From an uncultured Pelagibacteraceae bacterium (GTDB lineage: Bacteria > Pseudomonadota > Alphaproteobacteria > Pelagibacterales > Pelagibacteraceae), in assembly GCA_902584365.1 (NCBI GenBank), contig CACHZG010000001.1, forward strand, positions 62,001-126,000: 64,000 bases of DNA, given 5' to 3'. Of this stretch, positions 4,449 through 54,081 are shown piece by piece. The position numbers were made by a program, and so were the translations under genes. Positions within the stretch are counted from its first letter, which is position 1, and each line of letters starts with the position of its first letter. Under the pieces are notes generated by a model. It was given only the letters and a program-made list of their open reading frames with translations. It had not been told where the DNA came from and made no database searches.

Positions 4449-6236
4449 TTGGAAAAGAAACAACAGATTATTGAAAATTTTAAAAGTGCGATTAAATCTA
4501 CAGCTCGCTCAGTATCAAATATTGAAAATTTAGAAGTTAATTTTGGAGGTAAAACAGATCAAAATAAAGACTTGATCACTATACCTGAAATAAATGATCT
4601 GAGTGAATCAGAGGTTACAAAAACACGAGCAATAGCTGATGCACTATCCTTAAAGCTTAGATACAGTGATTTTGATATACTTAAAAATTTTGAGCCCAAA
4701 GGGGAAACCGCAAAAAAACTTTATGAAATTGCGGAAAAAATAAGGTGCGAAAAAATTGGTTCAGATGAGTTTTTAGGGGTAAAGAAAAACTTGAAAAATT
4801 TTTATAATAAAACACAGAGTCAAAATATAAATTCACAGCTAGAAAAAATCTCATTATTTTTTGAAAATTATCTAAAAAAAAGTATTCTTAATTTAAACAC
4901 GTTAGATAATTTAAAAGATTTACAAGGTATTAAAGATAAATATGAAAAAAAAATCAAAAAAAAAATAAATCTTTTAAATGAAAATATACATAATCAAAAA
5001 ATTTATAATTCACTTGTATCAGAATTGCTTGAAAATTTTAAATTAGAAGAGGATCTTAACCCAGATAAAAATCAAAAAGACGATAAGGAAAAAAAAGGAG
5101 ATAATAACAAAGAAAATGATCTTCAAACGAAAACAGAAAAAGAGGATAAAAAAATTGAAGAAATGGCGATAGAAGCACAAATTCCTGATGCTGAGAGCCT
5201 TTCGAAGAAATCAGATGATCAAGAACCTTTGGAACTTGAAGATGCAAAGACTAAATCTAAAGGCGATGAAAGATTAAGTTTAAATTTTGATGATAGTAAA
5301 TACAAAGTTTTTACTAAAGAATTCGATGAGGTAGTTAAGGCAGAAGAGCTCGAGTCCTCAATAGAGCTTACAAGATTGAGAGAAAATTTAGATCAACAAT
5401 TACAGCAGCTGAAGTTTTTTATCTCTAAATTAGCAAACAAATTACAAAGAAAATTACTTGCAAAACAAAATAGATCTTGGAATTTTGATTTAGAGGAAGG
5501 TCTTTTAGATACATCTAAATTAACCAGAATAATAATCGATCCTTTGAATTCACTATCATTTAAAAAGGAAAGCGATGTTGAGTTTAAAGATACTTTAGTC
5601 ACTCTTTTGATTGATAATTCCGGTTCTATGAGAGGAAAACCGATATCTGTAGCAGCTATTTGTGCTGACATATTATCAAGAACATTAGAGAGGTGTGGAG
5701 TGAAAGTGGAAATTTTAGGGTTCACCACATGTCATTGGAAGGGCGGACAAAGTAGAGAAAAATGGATGAAAAACAACAAACCCAACTTTCCAGGTAGGCT
5801 CAATGATTTAAGACATATAATATATAAGTCTGCTGATATACCCTGGAGACAATCAAAAAAAAATTTAGGGTTAATGCTTAAAGAAGGAATACTTAAAGAG
5901 AATATAGATGGAGAGGCTCTAAAGTGGGCTTTTAATAAAATGATTAAAAGAAGAGAAGAAAGAAAAATTTTAATGGTCATTTCAGATGGCGCACCAGTGG
6001 ACGACTCGACTTTATCATCTAATACAACTGATTATTTGGAAAATAATTTAAAAAATACAGTCAAATTAATTGAAAATAAATCTGAAATAGAGCTTCTAGC
6101 TATAGGTATTGGTCATGATGTCACTAGATATTATAAAAATGCAATTAAAATTACAGATATTCAAGATTTAGGTGATGTTATGATTAATCAACTCTCGGAG
6201 TTATTTACTGAGAAAAAAAATAAAGTTTTACATTAA
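4449..6236 (+). CDS. cobT: Cobaltochelatase CobT-like protein with VWA domain
   Basis: C-terminal VWA with MIDAS-like [27 protein letters not shown]; acidic/lysine-rich middle; TTG start. Confidence 0.92.
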
Positions 6237-6829
6237 GAGTTGTTTGCAAGTCCAAATTTTTTTTCGTTAGTGAATTCTTTTACGTATATAATTAAAACTC
6301 TAAAAGGAATGAGCATTAAAAGTGCGATTAATAATTTCACAGATAAATCTCCTAAGGATAAAGTGAACCAAGGTGTTTGTGTTCCATAAAATGAGATCAT
6401 AAAGAATAAAAATGTATCAATCACTGATCCGATAGTTGATGAAATTAATGGTGCAATATACCAAGATTTATTTCTTCGTAATCTATCGAAAATGTTTATG
6501 TCAATTAATTGAGCTGTTAAAAAAGCAATTCCAGAGCCGAATGCAATTCTAATAGAAATGATATCAGAAAAATTTGTGGAAACGAGAAGAGTTAAAGAAA
6601 CACCAATCAAAAAACCAAAGTAAACTACTTTTTTTGCAATAAATTTTCCAAAAGCTCGATTTGCTACATCTGTAACTAAGAATGATATTGGATATGTGAA
6701 AGCTCCATAAGTAAGAATATTTTCTAGTCCGAAACTATTAACAGGAAATTGAACTAAATAATTCGAACTTATTATAACTATACCCATTATTGCTAGAAGC
6801 AAAATAAATAAATTTTTTTTTTTACTCAT
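6233..6829 (-). CDS. VUT-family membrane transporter (queuosine precursor transporter-like)
   Basis: [17 protein letters not shown] and [22 protein letters not shown] match the VUT/YhhQ family; multiple TM segments. Confidence 0.85.
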
Positions 6830-6830
6830 T

Positions 6831-7109
6831 TTAAGATTTTTGGGCTATCGAAAATTTGAGTTTTTTTGCTTTTCTGGATAAGTTTTTATTTTTTGCTGAC
6901 TTTAAGAAATCATCTAAGCCGCCCTTGAAGTCTACAGTTTTTAGAGCTGAATTACTTACATTTAATCTTATACTTTTTTTTAAGATATCGCTTTTAAACT
7001 TTACTTTTTTAAGATTTGGATAAAATTTTCTTTTAGTTTTATTGTTAGCATGGCTAACATTGTTACCCTTAAGAGGTTTTTTTCCAGTTAACTCACATTT
7101 TTTTGTCAT
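6831..7109 (-). CDS. rpmB: 50S ribosomal protein L28
   Basis: CELTGKKPLKGNNVSHANNKTKRKFYPNLKKV. Confidence 0.95.
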   Translation of the reverse strand: MTKKCELTGKKPLKGNNVSHANNKTKRKFYPNLKKVKFKSDILKKSIRLNVSNSALKTVDFKGGLDDFLKSAKNKNLSRKAKKLKFSIAQKS

Positions 7110-7147
7110 AATTAGTAATGGTTGTATAGTTGAGATCTATTATATGG

Positions 7148-8194
7148 TCAAGCATTAATTCCAATTGCTTCTCTAATATTTTTAATTCTATTTTTGCCTA
7201 AAATTGAAATCAACTGATTTTTAATTTCTTTAGCGATTGTGGGACCTCTATAAATCATGCCTGTATACAATTGAACAACACTCGCACCTAAACTAATTTT
7301 TTCAAAAGCGCTTTGACCTGTGTCAACACCTCCTACACCGATAATTGGGACTTTACCTTTTAATTCTTTATAGAAATTTTTTATTAATTTGTTTGATAAA
7401 TCAAATAAAGGTTTTCCCGAAAGCCCGCCCTTTTCATTTTTATTCGTGTCTAATAAGTCGTCTCTGTGCCTGTCAGTTGAGTTTGAAATAATTAAGCCAT
7501 CAATACTGTATTTATTTGTAATTTCGCAAACATTACTTATTTCACTTGAATTTATGTCCGGGGAGAGTTTAATTAAAATAGGTTTGTCAATTTTATTATT
7601 TTTTTTTATTTTATTAATCCTTGTTAACAGATCAGAAAGTGAATTTTTGTTGTGAAAATCTCTTAGCCCTTCTGTGTTAGGTGATGAAATATTTATGGTC
7701 AAATAGTCTGCGTTGTGATGTAATTTAGAAAGACAAATTTCAAAATCATCACCTTTATCTGAGGTTTCTTTATTCGGACCAATATTTACTCCTAAAATTC
7801 CCTCTGGAATATTTTCTGATATTCTTTTGGACACAACGTCAGCGCCATGATTATTAAAACCTAATCTGTTAATAAGAGCTTGGTCTTTTTCTAATCTGAA
7901 AACTCTAGGCTTTGGATTCCCAAATTGTGCGCGTGGCGTAACAGTTCCAACTTCAACAAAACCAAATCCAAATTTAAATAAAGAATTGTAAACTTCGGCA
8001 CTTTTATCAAACCCGGCAGCCAAACCTACTGGATTTCTAAATTTCTTATTAAATAATTCTAAATGAAGCATCTCCTCATTTTTAACGTAAAAAAAGTTTT
8101 CAGGAATTAAGTTTGTTTTTAATGATTTAATAGCTAAATCATGAGCTACTTCTGGATCCAGTGAAAAAATTAAAGGTCTTAAAAAGGAAAACAT
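7148..8194 (-). CDS. pyrD: Dihydroorotate dehydrogenase (quinone)
   Basis: NPVGLAAGFDKSAEVYNSLFKFGFGFVEVGTVTPRAQFGNPKPRVFRL; INISSPNTEGLRDF; IGVGGVDTGQSAFEKI. Confidence 0.97.
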   Translation of the reverse strand: MFSFLRPLIFSLDPEVAHDLAIKSLKTNLIPENFFYVKNEEMLHLELFNKKFRNPVGLAAGFDKSAEVYNSLFKFGFGFVEVGTVTPRAQFGNPKPRVFRLEKDQALINRLGFNNHGADVVSKRISENIPEGILGVNIGPNKETSDKGDDFEICLSKLHHNADYLTINISSPNTEGLRDFHNKNSLSDLLTRINKIKKNNKIDKPILIKLSPDINSSEISNVCEITNKYSIDGLIISNSTDRHRDDLLDTNKNEKGGLSGKPLFDLSNKLIKNFYKELKGKVPIIGVGGVDTGQSAFEKISLGASVVQLYTGMIYRGPTIAKEIKNQLISILGKNRIKNIREAIGINA

Positions 8195-8195
8195 G

Positions 8196-9764
8196 TTATT
8201 TTGTTTTATTATTTATTAATTCTATAGTTTCTTTTATCCCAAAAAAACTTATAAAAAAACCCATTCGAGGCCCATCTTCTTCCCCAAATAAAACTTGGTA
8301 AATAAGCTTAAACCAATCTCTTAAGTTTTGCGCGTAACCATTGCTTTTACCTACCGTATAAACCATTGTTTGTATTTCTTCTGGTTTCAAATTTTGACTC
8401 ATTTTTTCTAAATTTTTTACTAAGTTCTGTAATGCCTTTTTTTCTTTTTCGTTAGGAATTTTAAATTTCTTATTTGGTTCAACTTTATCTTTAAAATAAT
8501 TGATTGCATATTTTGTTAGTCCATCTAAAATTGGATACTCATTTGGATTAATATTTTTGTGAAATCTTTTAATAAATTTCCACAAAATTTCTTTATTATC
8601 TGCATTACTTGAGCCTGTCAGATTCAAAAGCATTGAAAATGGCATAACGACTTTTTCGTTAGGTGGACTGCCATTATGAACATGCCAAACAGGATTAGAT
8701 ATTTTTTCTTTAACATCTTGACCATGAAATTTTTCCATCAAAGAGAGGTATTCATCTACTGTTTTTGGTACTATCTCTGAATATAATTTTTTTGCTCTTT
8801 TCGGGTTAGGGTACATGTACAAAGATAAACTCTCAGGAGAAGCGTACCGAAGCCATTGCTCGATAGTGATACCATTACCTTTTGATTTAGAAATTTTCTC
8901 TCCTTTTTCATCTAAAAATAATTCATAGGCAAAACCGTTAGGTGGTTGTTTACCTAAAAGCTTACAAATTCTAGATGACAGGATGGCACTTTCTGTCAAA
9001 TCTTTTCCGTACATTTCAAAATCAACATCAAATGTAAACCATCTCATCGCCCAATCGACCTTCCATTGTAACTTACAGTTTCCATCTAATATGTTAGTCT
9101 CAATTTTTTTTCCAACATTATCGAAAATAACTCTACCACTTTTTTTATCAAAACTTATCAAGGGTATCTCTAAAACTTTTCCGGTCTCTGGACAGATTGG
9201 CAGAAAGGGGCAATAAGTTTTTCGCCTTTCCTCTCTTAAAGTAGGTAATATAATGTTCATTATTTCATCGTATTTTTCAAGCACTCTTAGAAGAGAGGCA
9301 TTGAATAATCCCTTTTTGTAATTTGCAGTAGAGCTTTTAAATGTAAATTTAAAATTAAATTTTTTTAGGAAATTTTTTAACATTTCGTTATTATGTTCGC
9401 CAAAACTTTTGAATTTTTTAAATGGATCTGGTATTTCTGTAAGAGGTTTTCCAAGATTTTCTTTGAGAATAAAGTCATTAGGAATATTTTCTGGAATTTT
9501 TCGAAGTGCGTCCATATCATCTGAAAATGTAATTAACTCGTTGTCAATTTTTTGGATATGGTTAAGAGCATTGATCATCATTGTTGTTCGCGCAACTTCT
9601 CCAAAGGTTCCAATGTGAGGTAAGCCACTTGGGCCATAACCTGTCTGAAAAATAATCTTTTTTTTATTTTTTATGATATTTTTTCTTTCTTTTAAAAGTT
9701 TACGGATCTCAACAAATGGCCAAGATGTGGTCGATTGAATTAGGTTTTTATCTAACATAATCAA
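8196..9764 (-). CDS. lysK: Lysyl-tRNA synthetase, class I
   Basis: HIGH-like GPSGLPHIGTFGEVARTTM and KMSKS-like EKISKSKGNG; class I LysRS architecture. Confidence 0.93.
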   Translation of the reverse strand: MIMLDKNLIQSTTSWPFVEIRKLLKERKNIIKNKKKIIFQTGYGPSGLPHIGTFGEVARTTMMINALNHIQKIDNELITFSDDMDALRKIPENIPNDFILKENLGKPLTEIPDPFKKFKSFGEHNNEMLKNFLKKFNFKFTFKSSTANYKKGLFNASLLRVLEKYDEIMNIILPTLREERRKTYCPFLPICPETGKVLEIPLISFDKKSGRVIFDNVGKKIETNILDGNCKLQWKVDWAMRWFTFDVDFEMYGKDLTESAILSSRICKLLGKQPPNGFAYELFLDEKGEKISKSKGNGITIEQWLRYASPESLSLYMYPNPKRAKKLYSEIVPKTVDEYLSLMEKFHGQDVKEKISNPVWHVHNGSPPNEKVVMPFSMLLNLTGSSNADNKEILWKFIKRFHKNINPNEYPILDGLTKYAINYFKDKVEPNKKFKIPNEKEKKALQNLVKNLEKMSQNLKPEEIQTMVYTVGKSNGYAQNLRDWFKLIYQVLFGEEDGPRMGFFISFFGIKETIELINNKTK

Positions 9765-9850: not shown

Positions 9851-11299
9851 ATGCCGGCTAGTAAAACTGTTTTTTTCATTATTGGTATTCTTTTAACTAT
9901 TTTAGGAATATCGATGTTGGTACCATATACACTTCAAGTTTATTATGGCGAAGATAGTCATAGCTTTATTTCCTCCTCTTTTATCACTATTTTTTGTGGA
10001 GCTTTGCTATCGCTTTCAAATATTGAAAAAGAATATAAATTAAATTTACAGCAAACCTTTTTGTTCACATCAATGGCGTGGTTAATGATAGCGTTATTTG
10101 GATCTGTTCCATTTATGTTATCTCCTATATCTTTATCATTCAGTGATGCTTTCTTTGAGAGTATGTCTGGTATAACAACAACAGGCTCGACTACGATTAC
10201 AAACTTAGATAGTAGCCCTAAAAGTATTTTACTATGGAGATCAATAATGCAGTGGCTAGGGGGAATAGGTATAGTTGTTATGGCCATTACTGTCCTACCC
10301 CTTCTAAAAGTTGGAGGAATGCAATTATTTAAAATGGAGGGGCCAGACTCAACGGAAAAAATTCTTCCAAGAACTGTAGAAGTAGCAAGTACAATAATTT
10401 TAATTTATTTACTTCTGACTTTTCTTTGTGGTTTTTTTTATTGGATCTTTGGGATGACTTATTTTGATGCCCTTGCTCATTCAATGACAACAATTGCAAC
10501 GGGAGGATTTTCTACTCATAATGACTCTATAGGATTTTTTAAAAGTTCAAACATTGAAATCATAGCTTCTATATTTATAGTATTGGGGAGTGTGCCTTTC
10601 ATATCTTATTTAAAATTTTTAAAAGGAAATAGAAAAATTTTCATTAATGACGCTCAGATAAAAGGAATGGTTTATTTATTGATTTTTTCAAGTGTGATAA
10701 TGTTTATATATTTATTATTTTCAGATTTTGAAAACAACATTTATGAAAAAGTAAGGATTGCATCTTTTAACGTTATATCAATTTTATCTGGAACTGGATA
10801 TGTAACTGATGATTTCAGTTTGTGGGGAAAATTTTCTTTAATATTTTTTCTTTTTTTAATGTTCATTGGAGGATGTGCGGGATCGACAGCATGTGGTGTT
10901 AAAATATTTAGAGTGCAAATGTTATATATCTTTGTTAAAAATCAGATAAAAAAATTTATTTCACCTAACAGTATTAATTTAGCTAAATATAATAATCAAA
11001 AAATTTCTGAAGAATTTATCTATTCTGTGATTGTTTTTATTTTCTCGTTTCTTCTTATTTTTTTATTGATAACAATAATGTTATCAATTACAGGACTAGA
11101 TTTTATTACGTCGATATCAGGTGCAGCTAGTGCGATATCAAATGTTGGGCCGGGCCTTGGTGATGTAATTGGGCCTAATGGAAACTACAGTTCTTTGCCA
11201 AGTGTTTCAAAATTTATTTTGTCATTTGCAATGCTTCTTGGTAGGCTAGAACTGTTTGCAGTTCTAGTTTTGTTTTTACCTTCTTTTTGGAGAGATTAA
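9851..11299 (+). CDS. trkH: Trk-type potassium uptake protein TrkH
   Basis: SGITTTGSTTI, WLGGIGIVVMAITVLPLLKVGGMQLFKMEGPDST, TIATGGFSTHNDSIG, GGCAGSTACGVKIFR. Confidence 0.95.
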   Translation: MPASKTVFFIIGILLTILGISMLVPYTLQVYYGEDSHSFISSSFITIFCGALLSLSNIEKEYKLNLQQTFLFTSMAWLMIALFGSVPFMLSPISLSFSDAFFESMSGITTTGSTTITNLDSSPKSILLWRSIMQWLGGIGIVVMAITVLPLLKVGGMQLFKMEGPDSTEKILPRTVEVASTIILIYLLLTFLCGFFYWIFGMTYFDALAHSMTTIATGGFSTHNDSIGFFKSSNIEIIASIFIVLGSVPFISYLKFLKGNRKIFINDAQIKGMVYLLIFSSVIMFIYLLFSDFENNIYEKVRIASFNVISILSGTGYVTDDFSLWGKFSLIFFLFLMFIGGCAGSTACGVKIFRVQMLYIFVKNQIKKFISPNSINLAKYNNQKISEEFIYSVIVFIFSFLLIFLLITIMLSITGLDFITSISGAASAISNVGPGLGDVIGPNGNYSSLPSVSKFILSFAMLLGRLELFAVLVLFLPSFWRD

Positions 11300-11308
11300 T
11301 TATCTTTT

Positions 11309-12682
11309 ATGCAAATCGAAAAAAAATATTCCTTCTCAGACGCTTTTGCGATTTACATGGACACTCGAATGTTAAAGATTTTATTAATTGGTTCGATTAG
11401 TGGATTTCCATGGGTATTAATTGGAAGCAGTTTAAGCTTGTGGTTAAAAGAAGATGGTTTAAGCAGAAGTACAATTGGTTGGGCAGGATTAATATTTGCT
11501 GTGTATGCCTTTAATTACTTATGGGCTCCATTAATTGACAGAGTCAGAATTCCATTTCTTACAAGAAAAATAGGTCATAGGCGAGGTTGGATTGTCTTAA
11601 TGCAAATGTTTATAATTTTTTCTTTAATAGCTTGGAGTTTTATATCTCCGATTGAAAATCTATTTTCTGTTATTAGTATTGGTTTAATTATTGCAATTGC
11701 TTCAGCCACCCAAGATATAACTTTGGACGCTCTAAGGATTGAGCAAATTAACGAAAATGAGGGAAAGGTAATGCAAGCCGGTGCAGCTATTTCAGTTGTT
11801 GGATGGTGGACTGGATATAAGTTGGGAGGAGTTTTATCATTAGCAGTAGCCGATTATTTACAAGCTTTAGGATTTAATAATTATTGGCAAATAACTTTTT
11901 TAGTCTTATGTCTAGTAATTGTAATATTTAATATCCTTCTTCTATTAATAAATGAAAATAAATCGTCCGAGAGATTGGAGACACAAAAACGCAACGATTT
12001 AATAATAGAAAAAAAATTTGGTAAACAAAGTGTTTTTAAAAAACCTATTATATGGATAACTAGTACTGTAATAAGTCCGATTATAAGTTTTTTTAAGAAA
12101 AATGGTTTTAAAGTCGCATTGGCTATTTTAAGTTTCGTTTTCCTTTTTAAAATTGGAGAAGCTTTTTTGGGCAGAATGTCAGTAATATTTTATAAAGAAA
12201 TAGGTTTTACCAAATCAGATATTGCAATTTACTCAAAAGGCTTAGGGTGGATTTCTACTGTAATATTTACTCTTATTGGAGGATTATTCGCAATTAGATC
12301 AGGGGTTATTAAAGCGATGTTTGTTTCTGGTATTTTAATGGCTTCAACAAATCTTTTATTCTCTGTGTTAGCATGGTCAGAAAAATCAGAATTATTGTTC
12401 GCAATTGCGGTTATATTTGATGACATGGCTGCAGCTTTTGCTACTGTTGCTTTTGTAGCTTTTATTTCTATGTTAGTAGATAGAAATTATACAGCTACTC
12501 AATACGCTTTGTTAGCTTCAATAGGAACGGCTGGTAGAACATTGATGGCGTCATCATCTGGAGCTTTAGTTGATTGGTTGAACGGCGATTGGGGAATATT
12601 TTTTATATTAACTGCTTTAATGGTTATTCCGTCGCTTGTATTTCTGTATTTAATTAAAGAAAAAATCAAAATTTATGAGTAA
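11309..12682 (+). CDS. MFS transporter, AmpG-like
   Basis: GFPWVLIGSSLSLWLKEDGLSRSTIGWAGLIFAVYAFNYLWAPLIDR and SATQDITLDALRIEQI are AmpG-family-like. Confidence 0.85.
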   Translation: MQIEKKYSFSDAFAIYMDTRMLKILLIGSISGFPWVLIGSSLSLWLKEDGLSRSTIGWAGLIFAVYAFNYLWAPLIDRVRIPFLTRKIGHRRGWIVLMQMFIIFSLIAWSFISPIENLFSVISIGLIIAIASATQDITLDALRIEQINENEGKVMQAGAAISVVGWWTGYKLGGVLSLAVADYLQALGFNNYWQITFLVLCLVIVIFNILLLLINENKSSERLETQKRNDLIIEKKFGKQSVFKKPIIWITSTVISPIISFFKKNGFKVALAILSFVFLFKIGEAFLGRMSVIFYKEIGFTKSDIAIYSKGLGWISTVIFTLIGGLFAIRSGVIKAMFVSGILMASTNLLFSVLAWSEKSELLFAIAVIFDDMAAAFATVAFVAFISMLVDRNYTATQYALLASIGTAGRTLMASSSGALVDWLNGDWGIFFILTALMVIPSLVFLYLIKEKIKIYE

Positions 12683-13415
12683 AATTTACACTAATATTTA
12701 TCCGATTTGTAATCTTTATAAAAAAAATTCTAAAAAATCTCCACTGGTAACTCAAATTATTTATGGACAAAAATTTTCTATTAAAAAAAAAACTGATAAG
12801 TGGCTTAAAATAAAAATTTTAGACGATAACTATCATGGTTATATTGTAAGAAAAAAATTTCCATATTATTTTAAACCAACACATAAAGTGTTTAAATTGA
12901 AATCAAATGTTTATAAATTTCCGAATAATAAAAAAAAAATTAAGGAACTGCCTTTTGGATCAAGAATTAAAGAGATTAAAAGTAAATCAAATTTTATTCA
13001 ATTTAAGCTAGGTTGGATTAAAAAAAGTGATCTTAAGCCGGCCAAATTTAAACAAAAAAATATTTTTTCCAAAATAGAAATTTTTAAAAATATCAAATAT
13101 AAATGGGGTGGAAAGTCATATCTTGGCATTGATTGTTCGGGATTAATACAAATATTTTTTAATTTTAATAATAAGTTTTTTCCAAGAGATACTAAAGATC
13201 AGGTAAAGTTTTTAAAAAAAAGTATAAATTTCAAAAATATGAAAAAAAATGACATTATATTTTGGAAAGGCCATGTGGCTCTGGCATTGTCAAAAAATAA
13301 ACTTATACATGCTTATGGTCCTTTGAAGAAAACAGTTATAATGAACATCCCAAAAACTATTTCGAGAATTCAAAGGACAGCTAATTTAAAAGTGATAAGT
13401 ATAAAGAGAGTTTAG
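12675..13415 (+). CDS. NlpC/P60-family peptidase with SH3-like N-terminal region
   Basis: KYKWGGKSYLGIDCSGLIQIFF (catalytic Cys) and WKGHVALAL (His); SH3b-like N-terminus. Confidence 0.88.
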   Translation: MSKIYTNIYPICNLYKKNSKKSPLVTQIIYGQKFSIKKKTDKWLKIKILDDNYHGYIVRKKFPYYFKPTHKVFKLKSNVYKFPNNKKKIKELPFGSRIKEIKSKSNFIQFKLGWIKKSDLKPAKFKQKNIFSKIEIFKNIKYKWGGKSYLGIDCSGLIQIFFNFNNKFFPRDTKDQVKFLKKSINFKNMKKNDIIFWKGHVALALSKNKLIHAYGPLKKTVIMNIPKTISRIQRTANLKVISIKRV

Positions 13416-48374: not shown

Positions 48375-48704
48375 ATGGTAAAAAAAAGAAAAACTTCCAA
48401 AAAAAATAAAAACTATTTCATGAAATTTTTTGATGGTGAACTTTCTTTACCTCATTCTTATTGGTTAGTAGGTGTCTTATATTCAATCGGTGTGGCTCTA
48501 TTGGTTACAATGTTTTCTATAATGATGTCTCTACCTTCAAAAACTGATAATGTACTTTTATTACCTTGGGTAATTTTTACATCAATTGGTATTTGGCGAT
48601 CTTCTGACAATTACAAAGGTCCAAAATTTTGGTCCATATTAGCAAAGATAGCAGTTGTACTTGGACTTATACAAACTGTTGGCTACGTGCTAATAGGTGT
48701 TTAG
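48375..48704 (+). CDS. Hypothetical membrane protein
   Basis: 109 aa, basic N-terminus, about 3 hydrophobic segments; start 17 nt after the thioesterase stop. Confidence 0.65.
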   Translation: MVKKRKTSKKNKNYFMKFFDGELSLPHSYWLVGVLYSIGVALLVTMFSIMMSLPSKTDNVLLLPWVIFTSIGIWRSSDNYKGPKFWSILAKIAVVLGLIQTVGYVLIGV

Positions 48705-49124: not shown

Positions 49125-49484
49125 TTAGTTACCGAAATAACCTTTTCTGTTTCCCTTGTTGTCAAAAATATTTCCGTTATTGTGATAACCCCAGCTATTT
49201 CCTTTGTTGTCGTAAATGCCGTTATTTCTGTTAAAATTATACGGACTATTATTGAAATTATGTGGACTGTTATCAAAATTGTACGGACTATTTTTAAAGT
49301 TGTACGGACTATTATTGAAATTGTATGGACTATTATTAAAGTTTAATGATGAAGCCAATTTAACTTTTATCTCGTTATTTTGGTCAAGGGTATAGACTCC
49401 ATACCAGTTCATATAGTTAGTAGCTGCATGTGCACTTAGTTGTATACCTAGGCAAGCAACTATCATTATTATCATTTTTCTCAT
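49125..49484 (-). CDS. Secreted heptad-repeat protein (NNSPYNF repeats)
   Basis: Signal peptide MRKMIIMIVACLGIQLSAHA; repeats, then NNGIYDNKGNSWGYHNNGNIFDNKGNRKGYFGN. Confidence 0.75.
   Translation of the reverse strand: MRKMIIMIVACLGIQLSAHAATNYMNWYGVYTLDQNNEIKVKLASSLNFNNSPYNFNNSPYNFKNSPYNFDNSPHNFNNSPYNFNRNNGIYDNKGNSWGYHNNGNIFDNKGNRKGYFGN
49233..49337 (-). repeat. Five tandem 21-bp coding repeats ([N/K/D]NSP[Y/H]NF)
   Basis: NNSPYNF-NNSPYNF-KNSPYNF-DNSPHNF-NNSPYNF; the + strand shows recurring ttgtacggactattattgaaa-like units. Confidence 0.9.
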
Positions 49485-49580: not shown

Positions 49581-50039
49581 ATGCCTAAACCAAGAGATAT
49601 ATCATCTGTCGAAGCTGGACTTTCACTAGCCATAAAAAATAACAAAGATAAAGTTATGATTGCTACTGGTAAAAGTGAGTCCTATCTAAGGAAGTGCAGC
49701 GATCCAAGCTTACCACAGCAGCTAGATCATAAAGATGCAATAAAAATCGACAGGGCTTGTATTGAAGCAGGTTTAATGCCTTATTTATTTGAGGCACATA
49801 GAGCAATTATAGTTTCAGAATTAAAGAAAATTAAGGGATCTAACGAAGATTTAAATGATCTCTTGATAAAATTTACCATTCTTCATGGAAGATTAATGGA
49901 CTCTATTAAATCAGCTAAATCTTCTAAGGGTGATCAAGGTATTAAAATTTCAGCAGCGGAGAAAAAAGATATTTTTGATGCATTTGAGAAGTTAGAAACA
50001 AAAATTCTCAAAATTAAAAAAACTATAGAGGACAAATAA
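49581..50039 (+). CDS. Hypothetical cytosolic protein, possibly regulatory
   Basis: MPKPRDISSVEAGLSLAIKNNKDKVMIATGKSESYLRKCSDPSLPQQLDHKDAIKIDRACIEAG...; no TM; stop overlaps the next ATG by 1 nt (TAATG). Confidence 0.7.
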   Translation: MPKPRDISSVEAGLSLAIKNNKDKVMIATGKSESYLRKCSDPSLPQQLDHKDAIKIDRACIEAGLMPYLFEAHRAIIVSELKKIKGSNEDLNDLLIKFTILHGRLMDSIKSAKSSKGDQGIKISAAEKKDIFDAFEKLETKILKIKKTIEDK

Positions 50040-50716
50040 TGTATTTGTTATTAGTAACGATCATCCCATCAATAATTATTTTATTATTTTTCATGTATTC
50101 AGATAGGTTTAGAGAACCAAGAAAATCAATATTAAAAGTATTTATCTATGGATGTTTAATTTGTATTCCTGCTTTTTTTGCAAATACAATTCTAGATAGT
50201 TTTTGGTTTTATCAAACCAAGGTTCCTGAAGAATTAATCGGTTCATTTCTCGCACCTGCTTTTGTGGAAGAAGCTTTAAAGTTTTTAGTTCTATATTACG
50301 TGGTTTACAAGATGAAAGACTTTAACGAACCTATAGATGGAATAGTTTACGGTGTTACTGTTTCGTTGGGCTTTGCAACGCTTGAGAATATTTATTATGT
50401 GTTTTTAGTTGGTTATGAAGATCCACTAGCTATAGCATACTTAAGAGCTTTCTCAGCTATACCAGGGCATGCGCTTGATGGTGTATTTATGGGATACTTT
50501 TTCATGAAGTATGTTTATGTCCAAAAAAGAAATAATTTAATGTTAACATTTTTAGTACCCTATTTTTTACATGCATACTATAATTACTTCGCAGTAATAA
50601 ATTATAAACTTATGTATTTAGAGTTAATTATAGGATGGGCAATTGCGCTAATATTATTTAAAAATCTTAAGGCTGATCAAAAACTCAAAAGAGAAGAATA
50701 TGAAAAAAAACTTTAA
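50039..50716 (+). CDS. PrsW-family intramembrane metalloprotease
   Basis: Polytopic; PrsW motifs VEEALKFLVLYY (EExxK), LGFATLENIYYV, IPGHALDGVFMGY. Confidence 0.88.
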   Translation: MYLLLVTIIPSIIILLFFMYSDRFREPRKSILKVFIYGCLICIPAFFANTILDSFWFYQTKVPEELIGSFLAPAFVEEALKFLVLYYVVYKMKDFNEPIDGIVYGVTVSLGFATLENIYYVFLVGYEDPLAIAYLRAFSAIPGHALDGVFMGYFFMKYVYVQKRNNLMLTFLVPYFLHAYYNYFAVINYKLMYLELIIGWAIALILFKNLKADQKLKREEYEKKL

Positions 50717-52226
50717 AAGTTTATTAAATACTTTAGTTAAGATTTGTTTTATTTTTCTTATTTCAAAAAATTTATATGCAAATGAAACTGATGATTTGTG
50801 TAAAAATTTAAAGTCTGATCTTTTAGCAAATGGCTCAAAATATCTTTTATCATATTTGCCAACTGGAATGAATTATAATGATTTAGGTTTTGATTTAAAA
50901 TTATTTTGGGATGAAAATAAAAATAACTGGGTAGTAACAAGAGATGAGAATAATTTCCTTATTATCGGCGATGTTCTTCATAATGAAAATTTAGATAAGT
51001 TTGAAAGTGGTAATGTAGTTTTAGAATTAAATAATATTAAGACATCGGAAATGAAAGACGGTGCTGAGTTTTATCAAATTCTCCTAGACAGCTATGACCA
51101 AGAACAAGAAGTTGAAATTGTAATTAAGGACAATAACAAAGAAATAAAAAAATATAAGCTACCAGTTCTTGATTATGTGGCATCAGCGACTATTTTAGAT
51201 ACAGAAATAAAATCAATTTCTAATATTGATGTAAAAAAAAATGAGTTCGAGGTATTTTTAAGAAGAAATTTAAAATATAATTATACGAAAGTTGATGGGC
51301 TATATAAAGCTGCAAAAAAACATTTGACTAAAGAAAATGTAGTATTAACAGAGTGTCAAGAAACTGAGGCAGATTGGAAGAAAGTTAGAAATTTTGATCC
51401 AGATTTTGTAGTCGATTACTATAACATAGTGGATTTTGACAAAACGAAAATTGATAAAAAATACATTCTTGAATTCAATGAAAATGTGTTGAATGATAAG
51501 TCAAAACTAATACTCACAGCTCAAGAGACCGGTCTTTACAAATTTTCGAATGATTTTAATTTAAGATCTTTCCCATTTGATAAACAAATTTTAAAAATTT
51601 CGGTCTTTAACTCTCAACATCCATTAGAAACTAATTATATAGCAAGAGGATTATATCAAAAAAGAAATACAGAATTTTTTAAAAATAATGCCAAGATCCC
51701 CGGTTGGAAAATAACAGGAGTTGAAACAAAAAGCTCTCCTTTGATAAGACCTACTTATTTTGAAGCTGGTTCTATTATGACTACTTCAATATTTGTGGAG
51801 AGAGAAATCGGGTATTACATATTCAAAGTAATCTTTCCAATTATTTTAATCTTAATGGTTTGTTGGTCGGTTTCATGGATTAATCCAAAAGAATTAGAGT
51901 CGAGACTTACCATAACAATTGTATGTTTGCTTTCTTTAATAGCTTATAATTTTGTAATTGACAGTGAATTACCCAAACTAAATTACCTAACAGTTTTAGA
52001 TTGGATCATTTTAATTTCATATATTTATGCAACAATACCTAATTTTTTAAGTATCGCTACATTTAGGTTAAATACTTCAAATCCTAAATTATGTTTGAAG
52101 GTTGAAAACTATAGTAAAAAATATGGAGCATTATCTTATATAGTTTTAGTTTTATTAATTATTATGATTAATATCAATATTAGTCCTATAAATACTGGAT
52201 CTTTTTTAAATTGGCTAACTTTTTAA
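50700..52226 (+). CDS. Pentameric ligand-gated ion channel (prokaryotic Cys-loop-type) with extra N-terminal PDZ-like domain
   Basis: Signal peptide; PDZ-like segment (~residues 60-155: FESGNVVLELNNIKTSEMKDGAEFYQILLDSYDQEQEVEIVIKDNNKEIKKYKL); pLGIC ECD (IDVKKNEFEVFLRRNLKYN, LRSFPFDKQILKISVFNS); M1 YYIFKVIFPIILILMVCWSVSWI; M2/M3 ESRLTITIVCLLSLIAYNFVIDSELPKLNYLTVLDWIILISYIYATI; M4 at C-terminus. Confidence 0.9.
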   Translation: MKKNFKSLLNTLVKICFIFLISKNLYANETDDLCKNLKSDLLANGSKYLLSYLPTGMNYNDLGFDLKLFWDENKNNWVVTRDENNFLIIGDVLHNENLDKFESGNVVLELNNIKTSEMKDGAEFYQILLDSYDQEQEVEIVIKDNNKEIKKYKLPVLDYVASATILDTEIKSISNIDVKKNEFEVFLRRNLKYNYTKVDGLYKAAKKHLTKENVVLTECQETEADWKKVRNFDPDFVVDYYNIVDFDKTKIDKKYILEFNENVLNDKSKLILTAQETGLYKFSNDFNLRSFPFDKQILKISVFNSQHPLETNYIARGLYQKRNTEFFKNNAKIPGWKITGVETKSSPLIRPTYFEAGSIMTTSIFVEREIGYYIFKVIFPIILILMVCWSVSWINPKELESRLTITIVCLLSLIAYNFVIDSELPKLNYLTVLDWIILISYIYATIPNFLSIATFRLNTSNPKLCLKVENYSKKYGALSYIVLVLLIIMININISPINTGSFLNWLTF

Positions 52227-52629: not shown

Positions 52630-54081
52630 ATGAAATTAAAAACTGTCTTCGTTACGATATTATTTATTTTTATTTCAATAAAAAGTGTATCGGCTAATTT
52701 TTTTAATAACATTACTGATTTAATAGAAAATAACTATGAAAGTCTTAGATATGGTATTTCTGTAGCTGATGTTAATAATGATGGGGCTTACGAGTTTATA
52801 GTAGCTGGTTTCGGAAGTGAAAATTTAGCATTAGCATACAAAAACAATAAAATAACAAATATCGTGGATGATACAAAATTCACAGATAGAAGTAGTTTTA
52901 CTATTGGTGTAGCCGCTTGCGATATCGACTCTGATGGATACGAAGAAATTTATTTTTTAAATACTGATACTTACAGTGGTGAAAAGAAATATTCAGATCG
53001 TTTAATAGATCTAAAAAATAATAAATTTTTTGATATTTTTGAACAAAAGAAAAATCAATTAGATCTTAACTTCACAGCAGGCCGTTCGGTGGTGTGTGTT
53101 GATAGGAAAGGAAATGGAAAATACGGAATTTATGTTGCTAATTATGGCGGTCCAACAAGGTTTTATGAAAAGTTCAAAGGAAAAATTAAGGATAAAGCGG
53201 CAGAATTAGGCTTGGATAAAATAACCGGAGGAAGAGCAGTCGTTGCTGGACATATATTATCAAACAATATTGATATTTTCGCGGCTAATGAGAGAGGTGT
53301 AAACTTTTTGTATAAAAATGTTGATGGTACTTTTTATGATGTAGCGTCAGGGTATAATGTTTTAGACCCTTATGAAAACGGAAGAGGAACTGCATTAAGT
53401 GATATTTTGTACAGAGGTCAATTAGATATTGTAAGTGGAAATTGGGATGGAGAACACCGTATTTTTGTAAAAAAAGAAGACTCTTTTGAAGATATTGCTA
53501 ATAGCGATTTTAAAAGGCCATCTAAAATTCGAACAGTCATCACAGCTGATTTTGATAATGATGGATATGATGAAATATTTCTTAACAATATTGGTGAACC
53601 AAATAAATTATTTAAAATTAAAGAAAATGGAAAACTAGAGGAAATCGATATCACCTCTAACTCTGAAGCAAATGGTCTTGGAACTGGTGCTGCTGTAGCG
53701 GACATTGATAAAGATGGTATCTTAGAATTGTTAATCGCACATGGAGAAACAGGAAATCAAATACTAACACTTTATAAAGCAAAGGTAAAAAAAGAGAAGA
53801 ATTACCTAAGAATAAAAGCTTTAAATAAAAATGGAGCTCCAGCAAGAGGAGCAACGGTAACACTAAGATCTAATTTGAGAAAACATTCCAAAACAATAGA
53901 CTCTGGTTCAGGATATCTGTGCCAAATGGAACCTGTTGCTCACTATGGAATTAGAAATGGTGAAAAAGACTTTGAAATCCAAATTAAATGGACAAACGGA
54001 AGTATAAATAATTATAAAATAACAGAAACGGGAAAGACTTATATTTTCAAACAAAACAAAATGGCTATCTCGCCATCTTAA
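52630..54081 (+). CDS. Secreted FG-GAP/VCBS-repeat protein with C-terminal ASPIC/UnbV-like domain
   Basis: Signal peptide; repeated DVNNDGAYEF, DIDSDGYEEIYF, DFDNDGYDEIFLNN, DIDKDGILELLIAHGE; C-terminal YLRIKALNKNGAPARGATVTLRSN... Confidence 0.85.
   Translation: MKLKTVFVTILFIFISIKSVSANFFNNITDLIENNYESLRYGISVADVNNDGAYEFIVAGFGSENLALAYKNNKITNIVDDTKFTDRSSFTIGVAACDIDSDGYEEIYFLNTDTYSGEKKYSDRLIDLKNNKFFDIFEQKKNQLDLNFTAGRSVVCVDRKGNGKYGIYVANYGGPTRFYEKFKGKIKDKAAELGLDKITGGRAVVAGHILSNNIDIFAANERGVNFLYKNVDGTFYDVASGYNVLDPYENGRGTALSDILYRGQLDIVSGNWDGEHRIFVKKEDSFEDIANSDFKRPSKIRTVITADFDNDGYDEIFLNNIGEPNKLFKIKENGKLEEIDITSNSEANGLGTGAAVADIDKDGILELLIAHGETGNQILTLYKAKVKKEKNYLRIKALNKNGAPARGATVTLRSNLRKHSKTIDSGSGYLCQMEPVAHYGIRNGEKDFEIQIKWTNGSINNYKITETGKTYIFKQNKMAISPS

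Follow-up and report, generated by a model that had tools for sequence, protein, structure and literature searches.

The window, which is the whole stretch of 64,000 nucleotides that was analysed, contains on its forward strand a gene cluster in which a CP76/CII-like small protein (49581-50039), a PrsW-family intramembrane (glutamic) protease (50039-50716) and a PDZ-containing pentameric ligand-gated ion channel (pLGIC) subunit of 508 aa (50700-52226) are encoded in that order. The 3' end of the PrsW gene overlaps the start of the channel gene by 17 nt. The protease was recognised by PF13367 (3.2e-34), NF033739 (3.5e-42) and the glutamic/histidine active-site motifs EExxK, FxxxE and HxxxD, all of which are present in the window protein. 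The small protein matched PF06892 (8.2e-5 in the window, 3.4e-7 in a relative) and is probably a DNA-binding regulator of the cluster. Additionally, the gene-neighbour comparison identified a small membrane protein (cluster c3; 48375-48704, also on the forward strand) that recurs, in loose association, upstream of the PrsW-channel pair.

The channel subunit and its pore

The channel ORF is intact, with an ATG start, 508 codons and zero internal stops. It begins with a signal peptide (residues 1-27, 50700-50780; MKKNFKSLLNTLVKICFIFLISKNLYA), for which cleavage after LYA was placed by eye, followed by the N-terminal helix of the mature protein (50781-50843) with C34 (50799-50801), the PDZ domain (residues ~56-158, 50865-51173), the extracellular, ligand-binding beta-sandwich (ECD; residues ~163-368, 51186-51803), which holds C219 (51354-51356) and FPFDKQ (51570-51587), and the four-helix transmembrane domain (TMD) M1-M4 (51804-52223), in which M2 spans residues ~399-421 (51894-51962). 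The helix is seen in the AlphaFold (AF2) model, and the ECD and the TMD were delimited by PDB search, AF2 and alignment, with Foldseek in addition for the ECD.

The pLGIC identity resides in the C-terminal two thirds of the protein. With phmmer against the PDB the window channel matched DeCLIC (3e-15) and ELIC (~4e-15), and Foldseek with the full-length AF2 model, which has a moderate mean pLDDT of 76.7, matched sTeLIC, GABA-A receptors and GLIC at ~1e-18; both the ECD beta-sandwich and the four transmembrane helices were found in this model. The NCBIfam models LGIC_1 (1.5e-24) and LIC (3.7e-14) were also matched, both under their curated cut-offs. Pfam Neur_chan_memb gave 0.012 only, so that routine annotation probably misses the channel, and a search of the source genome with Neur_chan_LBD had zero matches despite the channel being present there, which indicates that the Pfam models are too remote. 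The pro-loop FPFDKQ corresponds to residues 291-296, and its P292 is invariant across a 44-row alignment. As FPFDKQ has no flanking cysteines (the cysteines are residues 16, 34, 219, 388, 409 and 465), the protein is not a Cys-loop receptor in the strict sense. From its sequence and model the window channel belongs to the pLGIC or Pro-loop receptor superfamily, and it is predicted to form an ion-conducting pentamer. The first-pass annotation had read a signal peptide in the ORF and, from FPFDKQ, M1-M4 and LPKLNYLTVLD, a full pLGIC core, and the ORF, NCBIfam, PDB and Foldseek results agree with it. The channel shares the ECD, the four-helix TMD, the pro-loop FPFD and a homologous M2 with sTeLIC, ELIC and GLIC, with significant matches in sequence or fold, whereas these proteins have no PDZ domain and show ~15-20% identity to it in structural alignments.

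In an alignment of 95 relatives the M2 positions were E400 at -2', T404 at 2', V408 at 6' and L411 at 9', which reproduces the numbering that had earlier been obtained by hand. The -2' position is acidic (E or D) in 91 of the 95 relatives and the 9' position is Leu in 94, and LPKLNYLTVLD stands after M2. By analogy with characterised pLGICs, cation selectivity of the channel is a plausible prediction.

The PDZ domain and its insertion point

The window sequence by itself did not match Pfam PDZ, and its N-terminal domain (NTD), searched against Pfam as a single sequence, gave DUF7744 alone at 0.0032, under the cut-off. The PDZ identity was established by the family profile and the structure model, not by the window sequence alone. 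The profile was made from alignment A3, comprising 31 NTDs of the family, and was searched against PDB sequences. Its top match was the PDZ tandem of an Aquifex site-2 protease (1.4e-11), followed by the PDZ domains of HtrA/DegQ proteases, SpoIVB, syntenin and PSD-95, and Pfam PDZ was matched individually by 15 of the 31 family members. The first-pass annotation had set structure prediction of residues ~55-160 as a check that could refute it; AlphaFold of this region on A3 gave a PDZ fold with pLDDT 92.6 and pTM 0.82. The Foldseek matches listed for this model were PDZ domains or PDZ-bearing proteins (CtpA, EpsC, and DegS with its activating peptide bound), at modest E values (best 1.9e-3), with a probability of 1.00 at the top and TM scores of up to 0.63.

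The carboxylate-binding loop x-Phi-G-Phi, which is LGF in the window (residues 62-64, 50883-50891), was found with a permissive pattern in 59 of 61 nonredundant PDZ members, and its glycine is the sole nearly invariant NTD column of A3. The beta-4 motif GDxIxxING has its textbook form in many relatives, but the window (GNVVLELNN) and the HtrA-type loci described below show a degraded version; as it is eroded in the latter while the loop persists, the predicted peptide binding may be lost there. Modelled fold, sequence homology of the family profile and carboxylate-binding loop all agree with PDZ membership, and at the level of the family the domain call is well supported.

In PDZ-less paralogues of ~400 aa the alignment covers positions 1-39 and ~152-494 of the profile, and the junction of the two parts is the exact site where the PDZ domain is inserted. 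The mature order is thus helix, PDZ and ECD strand 1, and, as judged from this alignment, the PDZ domain is an insertion that separates the N-terminal helix from ECD strand beta-1, not an appended domain. The earlier claim of an N-terminal PDZ-like domain was therefore right about the domain but not about the extreme N terminus, since the C34 helix precedes it. This cysteine is retained in the PDZ-less paralogues. Among 95 channels, C34 and C219 are both present in 85, both absent in five and discordant in five, and their co-occurrence suggests a disulfide tether from the helix to the ECD.

DeCLIC, a pLGIC from Desulfofustis, resembles the window channel in having extra periplasmic N-terminal modules, and it is the top PDB sequence match of the channel core. 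However, the NTD lobes of DeCLIC are calcium-binding beta domains that are not reported as PDZ (PMC12664993), and the DeCLIC and window NTDs gave no meaningful alignment (~-2 bits), the window having a PDZ domain instead of a DeCLIC-type NTD. Fan et al. (PMC12664993) regard DeCLIC as the sole pLGIC whose NTD has been partly characterised. That pLGICs can have additional sensory domains at the N terminus, and partners in the operon, has a precedent in Tasneem et al. (PMC549065), who described prokaryotic pLGICs fused to, or in operons with, PBP-I, PBP-II, Cache and MCP-N domains; their text mentions neither PDZ nor protease. Jaiteh et al. (PMC4795631) found Pelagibacter among the holders of pLGICs and discarded the terminal parts of the sequences, and PDZ is unmentioned in that paper. 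Our full-text search of open-licence papers returned no PDZ-bearing pLGIC architecture and nothing relevant linking pLGICs to PDZ, SAR11 or PrsW. As far as searched, a pLGIC with a PDZ insertion in a protease-linked cluster is unreported, in keeping with the earlier suggestion that the architecture may be undescribed; as the search covered open-licence papers only, this novelty is provisional.

Distribution and protease linkage

Scanning genome contigs with the window protein alone gave zero matches, and with an alignment as the query 77 loci were then found. Channel relatives were not found in viral contigs with either query. The window is of SAR11 (Pelagibacterales) origin. The best-matching named records were, by label, overwhelmingly Pelagibacteraceae/Pelagibacterales (SAR11) single-cell genomes; a few carried the label Alphaproteobacteria and one the label SAR86. 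A channel match was present in 49 of 397 genomes of the order, and the SAR11 PDZ profile found no match among pLGICs at class and phylum level beyond the order. In a tree built on the ECD and TMD with the PDZ columns removed, the bulk of the PDZ channels, 57 rows that are nearly all from SAR11, formed one group with moderate support (SH-aLRT 90), and the PDZ-less SAR11 paralogues fell in separate groups; the outgroup rows L165 and L166 entered this tree as PDZ on the length of their insert alone and probably lack the domain. The channel and PrsW are both patchy in their distribution, and the loci are not independent of one another in phylogeny. In the related alphaproteobacterial channels L149 and L150 the NTD is, by eye, of the GDRILAVDQ type. 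One sister-family genome (L064) carries two channels of 598 and 692 aa (6690-8483 and 11049-13124), a few genes apart and with longer PDZ regions, and in a marine alphaproteobacterium (L107) the channel gene is found in two reading frames (5189-5704 and 5848-6711), owing to decay or an assembly error.

In 49 of 78 loci PrsW is no more than three genes away from the channel, and four of these also have HtrA; an HtrA-like trypsin protease without PrsW is found in 25 and neither protease in four. A CP76-like gene stands at most four genes from the channel in 58 of the 78. At loci with PrsW directly 5' of the channel, the stop-to-start spacing ranges from -74 to +3 nt and is most commonly -17. Among the 397 SAR11 genomes, 26 have PrsW and the channel, 23 the channel only, 21 PrsW only and 327 neither, which corresponds to an odds ratio of 17.6 (Fisher p 4.9e-15, with kinship ignored), and in 22 of the 26 genomes having both, the two genes are within 3 kb. 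The 21 PrsW-only genomes were searched for overlooked channels and none was found; at several inspected PrsW-only loci a recurrent pair of other membrane proteins stands beside PrsW. As PrsW is also found at channel-less loci, next to other membrane proteins, it does not serve the channel exclusively, and this fits a module with exchangeable membrane partners. The pair, of ~280 aa each (clusters c1 and c3 of the PrsW-only loci), adjoins channel-less PrsW in L193, L199-L202, L204, L205 and L209, and is possibly an alternative sensor.

The HtrA-type loci encode an apparently secreted HtrA-like protease (Trypsin_2, 1.7e-27) with a C-terminal run of DxDxDG-like repeats. In the HtrA-like proteases of the channel loci Pfam found trypsin-type matches only and no PDZ. 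At the two inspected HtrA-type loci, L114 and L147, a caspase is encoded in addition, which matched Peptidase_C14 at 2.5e-21 and 2.8e-23 and appears to have a signal peptide. The caspase-like and the PDZ-less HtrA-like protein, both apparently secreted, are encoded upstream of the channel (L114 2647-7341, L147 2644-4530) and have a WITKKSK-like motif in common. Tandem arrays of apparently secreted proteins of ~200 aa were seen downstream of the HtrA-type channels in L123, L128, L134 and L140, and two similar ~200-aa proteins of L114 had no Pfam match.

Proposed mechanism, alternatives and oxidase-linked channels

A PDZ-bearing pLGIC encoded beside protease genes suggests an unrecognised bacterial signalling module. 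Our preferred reading, which we put at an even chance, is a PDZ-regulated, probably cation-selective channel of the SAR11 inner membrane that acts in one pathway with the co-encoded protease. In the pentamer each subunit would contribute one PDZ domain, placed after the N-terminal helix and before ECD strand 1, and the five together would form a periplasmic crown on the channel, possibly held in place by a C34-C219 disulfide. The most likely ligands of the PDZ domain would be free C-termini, whether from a partner protein or from periplasmic or misfolded envelope proteins, and its ligand together with the classical ligand site would control the opening of the cation pore. The protease encoded alongside, which is PrsW in the window and HtrA-like in other lineages, may make or remove the ligand or partner, or act on the response. 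The earlier PDZ-pLGIC interpretation as a whole is supported, and its gating by peptides or protein termini is kept here as a working hypothesis; the protease partners, the PDZ-less paralogues and the SAR11 origin had escaped it.

RseP/site-2 protease, DegS/HtrA and CtpA have PDZ domains on the periplasmic side that resemble the channel PDZ in fold and sequence. In these proteins the PDZ domain is fused to the protease, whereas in the window it is fused to an ion channel and the protease is encoded by a separate adjoining gene. A stronger version of the proposal is envelope signalling, in which the PDZ-crowned channel would read peptide or protein C-termini and be obligately coupled to its cognate protease (PrsW, or PDZ-less HtrA plus caspase); this we consider rather unlikely. 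If true, a PDZ sensor that normally resides within an envelope-stress protease would reside on a channel, and proteolytic stress would be turned into an electrical or ionic signal.

PDZ domains frequently serve as tethers, which counts for a reading in which the domain is a scaffold only that holds a periplasmic partner, such as the neighbouring protease or the substrate of that protease, and a small molecule gates the channel at the classical site. That the HtrA-like proteases lack a PDZ domain of their own, next to a channel that bears one, also agrees with tethering. However, the position of the PDZ domain directly in series with the ECD and the possible disulfide fixation suit allosteric control, and by eye the C-termini of the neighbours have no obvious common hydrophobic PDZ ligand, and we regard a mere scaffold as possible though doubtful. 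The degraded beta-4 motif in many members, including the window, would be expected of a vestigial or structural PDZ domain that has kept its fold, leaves peptide unbound and has a role in assembly, stability or cation binding, like the DeCLIC NTD, a calcium-stabilised modulatory domain (PMC12664993). As the best-conserved feature of the NTD is precisely the carboxylate-binding loop, such a loss of binding appears distinctly unlikely for the family.

A role in defence or cell death, in which channel opening and protease activation would kill or arrest infected cells, could account for the patchy distribution, the exchangeable partners and the secreted caspase-like and trypsin-like proteases of the inspected HtrA-type loci, which showed a weak PADLOC resemblance to caspase/protease defence components. 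The channel, PrsW and the CP76-like protein were not matched by PADLOC, several loci share one genomic position and the same flanking genes, and viral relatives were not found, which makes this role improbable. The failure of the window sequence alone to match Pfam PDZ might point to an artefact, namely a chance PDZ-like pattern, an ORF or gene fusion error, or contamination. This was rejected, and its probability is negligible, given the intact ORF, the same architecture with the same neighbours in dozens of independent genomes and the structure model; chance in particular is excluded by the conservation across these genomes.

SAR11 are among the most abundant bacteria of the ocean, and little is yet understood of what the bacterial relatives of neurotransmitter receptors do physiologically. 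With its strongly conserved protease neighbours, the PDZ-bearing pLGIC of SAR11 offers a concrete, testable hypothesis for a role of these channels outside animals, and a natural system for the control of pLGICs by an accessory domain.

Some PrsW-type loci add a Tat-signal flavin amine oxidase (Pfam 6.8e-46), of which the closest PDB matches were lysine demethylase 1B and polyamine oxidase, and in 12 of 12 oxidase loci it adjoins a PDZ-less channel. The best PDB match of this oxidase-linked channel was sTeLIC, which has been solved with phenethylamine as the ligand, and from this analogy an amine agonist and heteropentamers are possible in the oxidase-linked loci. In L051 the PDZ-less paralogue and the Tat-type oxidase lie at 7925-9112 and 6587-7921, and the same pair was seen in L052, L053, L054, L055 and L058. 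Downstream of the channel, the window encodes a secreted FG-GAP repeat/ASPIC-UnbV protein (52630-54081), a relative of which is near the channel in L062. A small secreted protein with tandem NNSPYNFN repeats is encoded at 49125-49484 of the window, and its relatives were found near the channel in L055, L056 and L062.
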